A DNA stretch of 64,000 nt from Deltaproteobacteria bacterium (GTDB lineage: Bacteria; Myxococcota; Myxococcia; Myxococcales; 40CM-4-68-19). Positions 25,342 to 28,041 of the stretch are shown here, piece by piece. How positions within the stretch are numbered: position 1 is the first letter of the stretch; each line of letters begins with the position of its first letter. A model generated the notes under the pieces. The model made no database searches. It was not told the DNA's origin and was given only the letters and a program-made list of their open reading frames with translations. The stretch spans positions 1-64,000 of the forward strand of contig VBLC01000035.1 of NCBI GenBank assembly GCA_005879315.1, given 5' to 3'. The position numbers were made by a program, and so were the translations under genes.

Positions 25342-28041
25342 GTGGGCTACGCCGAAGAGCGCCTGGAACTGACGGCGGCGCTCCGCAAGCAGGTGGCGGG
25401 GAAGTCGCTGGTCGAGGCGCTGCGCCTCGACGGCCGCGACATGCGCTTCCATGTCGGCACCTCGCTGGCCGATCTGCGCGTGCCGGTCCACGTCGACGGT
25501 TCTCTCGGCGACGCTTTGCGCGCCGCGGTGCGCGACCTCTTCTTCCTGCTCTGCCTGCGCCATCGAGCGGCGTTGCGCGAGAACGAGTACGACCGGCTTC
25601 TCTTGCTCGACGGATTCGACCCGAAGGCCTCGCGCGTGCCCTCCTTCCTGCCGCCTGCGAGCGTCACCCGCGGGGGAGTGCGCCAGGCTTTTCTCGAGGC
25701 GCCCGAGCTGCACCCGGCGCTCGACAGCGGGCTCGTCGCCAGCTGGATCAGCTCCGGCCGGCCGGGCCGCGTGCTGGTCGGCGCGCTCAACGCGCTGTTC
25801 AAGCGCGCCGGCGAGGAAGGCGCCGCGCAGGACCCGCAGGAGCCGACGCCCTATCTCGTGCTCCTGGCGCTGCGCGGGCTTTCGCAGAAGGCGCTGGAGA
25901 TGCTCAAGGACCTGCCGGTCTCCGGACCGGTCGGCCGCATCATGAACGGCGCGGTGGCGGCGGGCCTTCTGGTCGCGGTCCGCCTCGCGGTGCGCGAGGC
26001 GAATCTGCCCTCGCCGCTGCAGTGCGAGGCGGCAGCGCTCGCCTTGCCCTGGGCGGGCGGCCTGCGGGCTCTCTGGGGCAATGGCCTGCAGTGCTACGGT
26101 CCACCCTTCGTCGAGCCTGTGCCGCACATCGAGCAGCACATCGCCCGGATGCTCCAGGGCGCAACGCCGGAGACGGTGGCGCGCGAGGCGGCGCTGGAGG
26201 CCGTCGGCTCGAAGGAGACGCAGCGGAAGGCGACGAGGCAAGTCGCGCTCATGCACTTGCGCGGCGAATTGCTCCAGCTGCTTCGCCTGGCCGAGGCTGG
26301 CCGGTCTCCACCGCTCTCCATCGAGGGATTGACGGTGGCGCAGCTCTACCAGAGCCCCGGCGCTCTCGAGCGGACGATGACCAACGCGTCGGCGCGCAAG
26401 GATCTGGCCAGCAAGGCCAAGGCCGCCGCCAAGTCCGCGAGCAATGAAGAGGCGCGAACCGTGCTCGGCTCGATCGCGCTCGCCGGCAAAGAGTGGAAAG
26501 AGGACGACCCCGGCGGCTATCTCACGCCTGACTCCGCGATCAAGGCATGGTCGCAGGCGGTCGCAGCGGTGGCGATCGACGGCGCCATCGACCGCGCGCT
26601 CGACCAGGCCGAGCTGCAGCTGGTCCACCGCACGGGCGCCGAGAGCGAGGGAGGACTCACCACCCAGCACGAGGGCGGCAAGCTCTACCTCCTCGGCGTG
26701 GAGGAAAGGCCCATCCTCATGGGCCGCTCGCGCGCGCAGCAGATGGGCCATCTCTTCTGCGACATGAAGGACTTCACCAAGCGCACGGCGTTCCTCAAGG
26801 AGACGGTGGTCGCCGACTTCCTCTCCCGGGAGTTCTACGGCCCCATCCTCACGGCCGCCGCGCGCCACGCCCACGGCGCTGCACATCTGGCCGACAAGGG
26901 CGGCATCTATCTGAACAACCTGCTCGGCGACGCGATCAGCTTCTCCGGCGACATCGTCGGCCTCGTCGAGCTGGCCAAGGACATCCGCCAGACGCTGGGC
27001 AATTACGCGCGCCGCCTCGAGAGCGAAGCAGGCAGCGAGTCGGTGGCGAAGATCATCTCCGCCGTCGAGGAGAAATTCGCGGCGCGCAAGCAGCAGCTGG
27101 CGGCGGCGATCAGGTCCGCGGAAGACGCGCTCCGGCGCGGAACGCTCGACCGGCTCTCCGGCGAGGAGCCGGCGTCGCGCCTCGCCATGTTGCAGGCCGA
27201 GCACGAGCGCCTCGGCGAGGAGCGCCAGGCCGAGATCGCCCGCGCCACCGGCGAAGAGCTGGAGGCAGGAATCTTCATCTCCTACGGCGCCCCTGCCGAG
27301 GTCGCCACCTTCGACGACCACATCTTCGGGCAGATCAAGGTCTCCATCGCCGAGAAGATCAACGAGAGCGCGCGCGGGACCGCCCGCAACGGCGGAGTGC
27401 GCGCGCGGGTCGACGCCATCCTCGCCAGCGAGAGAGCGCGGCTGGGGCGCGCCGATCTGCTCTGCCCGCTCTCGGTGGCGGTCTCGCAGCCGCTCTCGAT
27501 GCCTGTCCCGGCCGAGACGGAGCTGGCGGTGCGGCGCAGCCTCTCGCAGGGCGACCTCGAGGGCGCCGAGACGGTGCTGGGCGGAACGGTGCGCGAATTC
27601 GTCGAGCAGCTCTCGCAGGAGGCCGACGCCGGCGAGGACCGCGGCGACATCTACAACGGCGGCGCGGCGGTCTCCGAGGAAGCGCTCAGGGCCTATTTCG
27701 ACGCCCGCGGCGGAGAGCTCATCTTCATCCGCCGCAACATCGAGGTGGCCGCGCTCGACCCCGGCATCCGCGGCCGCTTCGTCTTTCCCATGAAGGCGCT
27801 CAAGCTGGTGATGGCCGTGTCGCCCTCGGCGCAGTCGCTGCAGGAGCTCTTCGTCTTCGTCGGCCGCGCGCTCTTCAAGGGATTCGAGAAGCAGGGCGGG
27901 CTGGGAATCTACGAGATGGTGGCGCGCGAGCATCCGTTCTTCCAGCTCCTCGCGCAGCACCACGTCCCCGAATGGCTGCGCGAGCACGAACAGGGCCTCG
28001 CCCCGGCCAGCGGCGAATGGCATCCGCTGGCGCTCGGCTGA
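25342..28041 (+). CDS. Large protein with divergent class III nucleotidyl cyclase-like domain
   Basis: FCDMKDFT (aa 472-479), [11 protein letters not shown] (GD at 529-530), INESARGT (N674...R678); GTG start. Confidence 0.6.

Follow-up and report, generated by a model that had tools for sequence, protein, structure and literature searches.

A divergent subfamily of probable class III nucleotidyl cyclases in Myxococcota with unusual residues at the base-specificity positions

The gene at positions 25342 to 28041 of the plus strand of the window, by which we mean the whole stretch of 64,000 nucleotides analysed, very probably encodes a catalytic member of a divergent subfamily of class III nucleotidyl cyclases, a class of enzymes producing messengers such as cAMP, as judged from sequence comparison and structural modelling. 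The metal-binding and transition-state residues of the class are retained throughout the subfamily, and both positions that specify the base carry residues that differ from the canonical ones.

The gene, its distribution and its recognition by sequence models

The ORF encodes a protein of 899 aa, starts with GTG and ends with a TGA stop codon at positions 28039-28041. Homologues of the same length (27-70% identity) were found, and the codon differences with respect to the nearest relatives were concentrated at third positions (353, versus 205 and 130 at the other positions). As, in addition, the motif residues described below are invariant in 50 members, the frame is not a chance ORF; it is a real gene with full-length homologues in Myxococcota. 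A 939-aa antisense frame on the minus strand was rejected as a gene, the plus frame being the one that the relatives conserve.

The gene is present as a single copy in the source genome, which is that of a soil bacterium. A homologue was found in 31 of 60 near-relative genomes, and a profile search detected a member of the family in 54 of the 195 Myxococcota genomes. The species-level genome collection gave 33 loci, including those of Archangium violaceum, Archangium lansinium and Anaeromyxobacter MAGs; nearly all were labelled as Myxococcota lineages or as 'Deltaproteobacteria', in a scan that was pattern-limited and, as a consequence, does not prove absence beyond this phylum. No relatives of the protein were found in the plasmid and phage record collections searched. 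One of the homologues (L056:4244-6930) is interrupted in the middle of the gene by an apparent frameshift, which may be due to either decay or an assembly error.

Scans of the 899-aa protein with Pfam and NCBIfam gave nothing meaningful, PADLOC gave no match, and the family profile yielded only chance matches against PDB sequences. The Guanylate_cyc model PF00211, whose curated cut-off is 21.9 bits, did not match the protein at E values of up to 10 and was not among the Pfam families matched by 32 members of the family. Likewise, neither the protein nor these 32 members matched the DUF2652 and GGDEF models. The initial annotation had proposed a new family, which agrees with the failure of all these searches: by sequence and model evidence, this is a class III cyclase subfamily previously undescribed by standard family models, within a superfamily that is itself known. 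PF00211 is the usual basis for inventories of bacterial cyclic nucleotide signalling and, since the family lies below the detection of this model, such inventories overlook these Myxococcota cyclases. Another group of cyclase-like proteins, those of DUF2652, was likewise recognised through its remote homology with class III cyclases and includes proteobacterial members; they have about 250 aa, carry Lys/Glu or Glu/Lys at the base positions and have the transition-state Asn replaced (PMC4886424). In contrast, the protein described here is 899 aa long and keeps this Asn.

Predicted fold and conserved residues

The monomer of 899 aa was modelled by AlphaFold2 with the family alignment (pLDDT 86.1, pTM 0.67). 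Residues 468-678 of the model follow the order β1-α-α-β2-β3-α3-β4-β5, which is that of class III cyclases. Strand β1 (468-476) is followed by helices, β2 (521-528), β3 (531-536) and α3 (538-563); after α3 come a helical hairpin (566-636), β4 (641-649), β5 (653-659), a further strand (663-669) and a helix (671-678). A Foldseek search of this fold against the PDB returned, as the best 50 matches listed, only class III cyclases or their multidomain relatives (best E value 4.5e-4, most with a probability of 1.00), including CyaC (1wc1), Cya2 (2w01) and mammalian adenylyl cyclase (1cjk). Normalised by target length, the TM-scores were modest: most single-domain targets gave 0.4-0.6, a range consistent with the insertions but not strong support in itself. 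In agreement with the fold match, and independently of it, profile-profile alignment by hhalign of the family, with the coiled coil removed, against 13 canonical PF00211 domains, which came mostly from the genomes surveyed for the family, gave a probability of 90% (E value 1.5e-6). When further insertions were trimmed and a single template was used, these values were 92% and 5.8e-7, while the N-terminal domain, used as a control against the canonical domains, gave 0.4%. Fold and profile searches thus coincide with the divergent class III cyclase initially proposed.

The three signatures that had been read from the sequence, FCDMKDFT, LLGDAISF and INESARGT, are present in this order with D474, D530, N674 and R678 as annotated, and hhalign places these four residues on the canonical metal and transition-state residues. 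The first metal Asp, D474 (26761-26763), is in β1 of the core (26743-26769); the second, D530 (26929-26931), is in the NNLLGD hairpin of β2 and β3 (26902-26949); and N674 (27361-27363) and R678 (27373-27375) are in the segment from β4 to α4 (27262-27375). Both Asp residues (FxDxxxFT and GD) and the Asn and Arg of the NxxAR motif do not vary among 50 members, whose identity goes down to about 26%; this count comes from a table of 52 rows, from which L029 (wrong frame) and L081 (a degenerate relative) were removed, and the independent members are somewhat fewer than 50 because the table holds a few duplicate records from different collections. The excluded L081 (G075:C533:3900-6700) shows FFDASELV, IQLTPDQ and HVSEARRG at the three motifs, from which the glycine of GD and the transition-state Asn have disappeared, and is a natural candidate for a pseudo-cyclase in the wider family. 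The initial annotation would have taken motif residues that were not co-localised as evidence against a cyclase. In class III dimers, however, the metal Asp pair and the Asn/Arg pair are supplied by opposite subunits, so co-localisation in a monomer is the wrong test. According to the model and the alignments, the C-terminal half of the protein is folded as in class III cyclases, and both metal Asp residues occupy their expected places, as do the Asn and the Arg. Fold, motif order and these residues are shared with PF00211 cyclases such as CyaC, Cya2 and the mammalian enzyme, whereas the family differs from them in the residues at the two base positions, in its insertions, in lying below Pfam detection and in its unrelated N-terminal domain.

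The long helical insertion (about residues 558-640) suggested by the initial annotation appears in the model as two helices (566-599 and 610-636) forming a hairpin or coiled coil between α3 and β4 (27037-27249), and the distance from GD to the Asn, given there as about 144 residues, is exactly 144. Across the family this spacing ranges from 72 to 239, with 5-172 aa inserted between α3 and β4. Several members, with a spacing of 72-82, match the 72-77 of canonical cyclases, so the core is that of an ordinary cyclase, to which the coiled coil is an optional addition. Further insertions appear to split the C-terminal α/β part (aa 767-860; 27640-27921), where the motifs YNxGxAxS...L and GxxxF[KR]G are conserved in the family. 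This part probably provides the last strands that complete the cyclase domain: the trimmed hhalign alignment extends through it onto the canonical VSE and KG...V-E elements, and it does so only with the insertions trimmed. Since the C-terminal strands alone gave no significant alignment with canonical cyclases (hhalign probability of about 1%), the assignment is only suggestive.

The N-terminal 450 aa had been described as resembling no recognisable domain, and accordingly no Pfam match was found in this part and a fold search of residues 1-430 against the PDB gave no match (best E value 0.33, probability 0.08). Modelled alone, these residues (25342-26631) form an all-helical domain with high confidence (pLDDT 92.2, pTM 0.92), whose position suggests a putative input or regulatory function.

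Base-specificity positions, possible products and rival explanations

The adenine-specifying Lys before GD, already noted as replaced (NNLLGD), is substituted by N526 (26917-26919), four residues before D530. At the second base-specificity position, where the partner Asp or Thr is normal, the protein has V667 (27340-27342); both residues are invariant in the 50 members. Canonical cyclases from the same genomes carry Lys with Asp, Thr or Ala at these two positions. The canonical pair (Lys with Asp/Thr, or Glu with Cys) is absent from the 899-aa protein, although this pair varies within the class and is not strictly defining. We know of no characterised counterpart of the Asn/Val pair. Being fixed, it speaks for a distinct base pocket and makes an altered nucleotide specificity possible; it could also signify absence of NTP turnover. 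As a naturally occurring variant, the pair can be used to study base selection in class III enzymes. Guanylyl cyclases pair Glu with varied partners (PMC4215837). In pyrimidine cyclases the first position changes with the base, being Arg142 in the cCMP-making EaPycC (metal Asp146) and, according to our own reading of the numbering, Asp94 in the cUMP-making BcPycC, and other proteins are mentioned in which Asn recognises uracil (PMC11224242).

With regard to the product, it is quite possible, if somewhat short of probable, that the protein makes cAMP despite the Asn/Val pair, as an ordinary adenylyl cyclase feeding the CRP-type receptors of these genomes; this would be one particular form of the explanation that we prefer. 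Genomes G027 and G031, the latter a single closed contig, carry the family gene and cNMP-binding proteins with zero PF00211 matches, so in at least these two genomes the family gene is the only class III cyclase recognised. However, G022 and G039, which lack both cyclase types, have as many cNMP-binding proteins (6-7); because PF00027 numbers are equal where both types are missing, receptors are uninformative about cAMP, and their co-occurrence was dropped as evidence for it. In L042 (12570-16533, minus strand), and also in L043, the cyclase homologue faces three consecutive genes in convergent orientation, a cassette of PDEase_II, a CRP-like regulator and a CHASE2-adenylyl cyclase. The cassette counts for little, as it was found in two related lineages only and includes its own canonical cyclase. 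More tentatively, and in our opinion rather doubtfully, the subfamily could use the Asn/Val pocket to produce not cAMP but cGMP, cCMP, cUMP or another cyclic nucleotide, and three elements would control this activity: the all-helical domain as a new type of sensor, the coiled coil as an adjustable insertion, and the single-TM peptide translated together with the cyclase. That this product is specifically cCMP or cUMP, as in the Pycsar chemistry, seems very unlikely. Like PycC, the family would combine class III chemistry with non-canonical base residues, and N526 occupies the PycC specificity position with an amino acid that recognises uracil elsewhere; but the specificity residues of PycC (F100/R142/Q144 or Y50/D94/R97) are unmatched as a set, the protein is much longer, and it is adjoined by glnB/glnA and the TM peptide instead of a CNBD effector gene. 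The single copy, the housekeeping neighbourhood and the lack of PADLOC matches and of relatives in the phage and plasmid collections searched also stand against it. For these last two reasons a role in defence was rejected.

Whether the protein cyclises any nucleotide was also considered, since the initial annotation had left room for a pseudo-cyclase, a class III fold that would bind a nucleotide without cyclising it and serve as a scaffold or to sense a ligand. In its favour, neither base-specificity residue is canonical, the distant relative L081 lacks the equivalents of N674 and of the GD glycine, and the Foldseek matches include the P. aeruginosa structure 6yii, titled as a class III adenylyl cyclase-like ATP-binding protein (rank 12, probability 0.89), which matches the model in fold. 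Nevertheless, pseudo-enzymes usually lose some catalytic residues, and the full retention of the metal Asp pair, the Asn and the Arg in the 50 members argues for an active enzyme, which leaves the pseudo-cyclase as an unlikely explanation. Even less credible is a different palm-fold enzyme of the GGDEF or polymerase type. This is largely refuted, given that the protein contains no GGDEF motif, as diguanylate cyclases do, that none of the best 50 Foldseek matches listed is a GGDEF protein and that its N-x-x-A-R aligns with the cyclase motif.

We therefore favour, as the likely reading of the sequences and models, an active homodimeric class III-type nucleotidyl cyclase with non-canonical base recognition. 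Two chains would associate head to tail with shared active sites, D474 and D530 of one chain binding two metals and N674 and R678 of the other stabilising the transition state, so that an NTP would be cyclised to a 3',5'-cyclic NMP in a pocket using neither the Lys/Asp nor the Glu/Cys code. The N-terminal helical domain and the helical hairpin might set the geometry of the dimer and hence its activity and, in the lineage of the window, the co-translated TM peptide might tether or regulate the cyclase at the membrane. Against an active cyclase of this kind stand the lack of PF00211 matches in the members scanned, the modest TM-scores, the canonical cyclases and CRP-type proteins that the source genome already possesses (8 PF00211 and 20 PF00027 matches), and the finding of no conserved receptor or phosphodiesterase gene beside the cyclase in the lineage of the window. 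Since the coiled coil is present in some members and missing in others, the family provides a natural series in which the control of cyclase dimers by insertions and partner peptides can be studied.

The downstream peptide and the genomic neighbourhood

A small gene (28041-28202, plus strand) follows that of the cyclase, with which it is probably translationally coupled, its ATG sharing the A of the cyclase TGA (1-base overlap). It encodes a peptide of 53 aa with one hydrophobic segment that ends in LLMRVLR. The same arrangement was found in eight relatives (43-73% identical), and the codon differences were mainly at third positions; in the lineage of the window the conserved peptide has 50-72 aa. 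The peptide is probably a membrane tether or regulator of the cyclase. PADLOC gave no match for it, and it was not found downstream of the cyclase in L034, L036 and other lineages.

On the other side, divergently oriented on the minus strand, there are a glnB-like gene for a P-II regulator (24881-25219; PF00543, 8.6e-32) and the glutamine synthetase gene glnA (23412-24860; TIGR00653, 663 bits). Both lie upstream of the cyclase in most relatives of the window's family, glnA or glnB alone is beside it in the more distant loci L040 and L041, and this neighbourhood is absent from the cyclase loci of the Anaeromyxobacter and Archangium lineages. No conserved receptor or phosphodiesterase gene was found in the neighbourhoods of the window's lineage. 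In relatives, a conserved lipoprotein-like gene (L031:2871-3389, minus strand) is located between glnB and the cyclase; the window has no room for it, as the gap there is only about 120 bp. Further along the window, two similar genes in tandem (31462-32942; 251 and 222 aa) are PilZ-like by eye. Finally, a second glutamine-synthetase-like gene (33706-35079) is located less than 10 kb from glnA and adjoins a likely class I glutamine amidotransferase gene.
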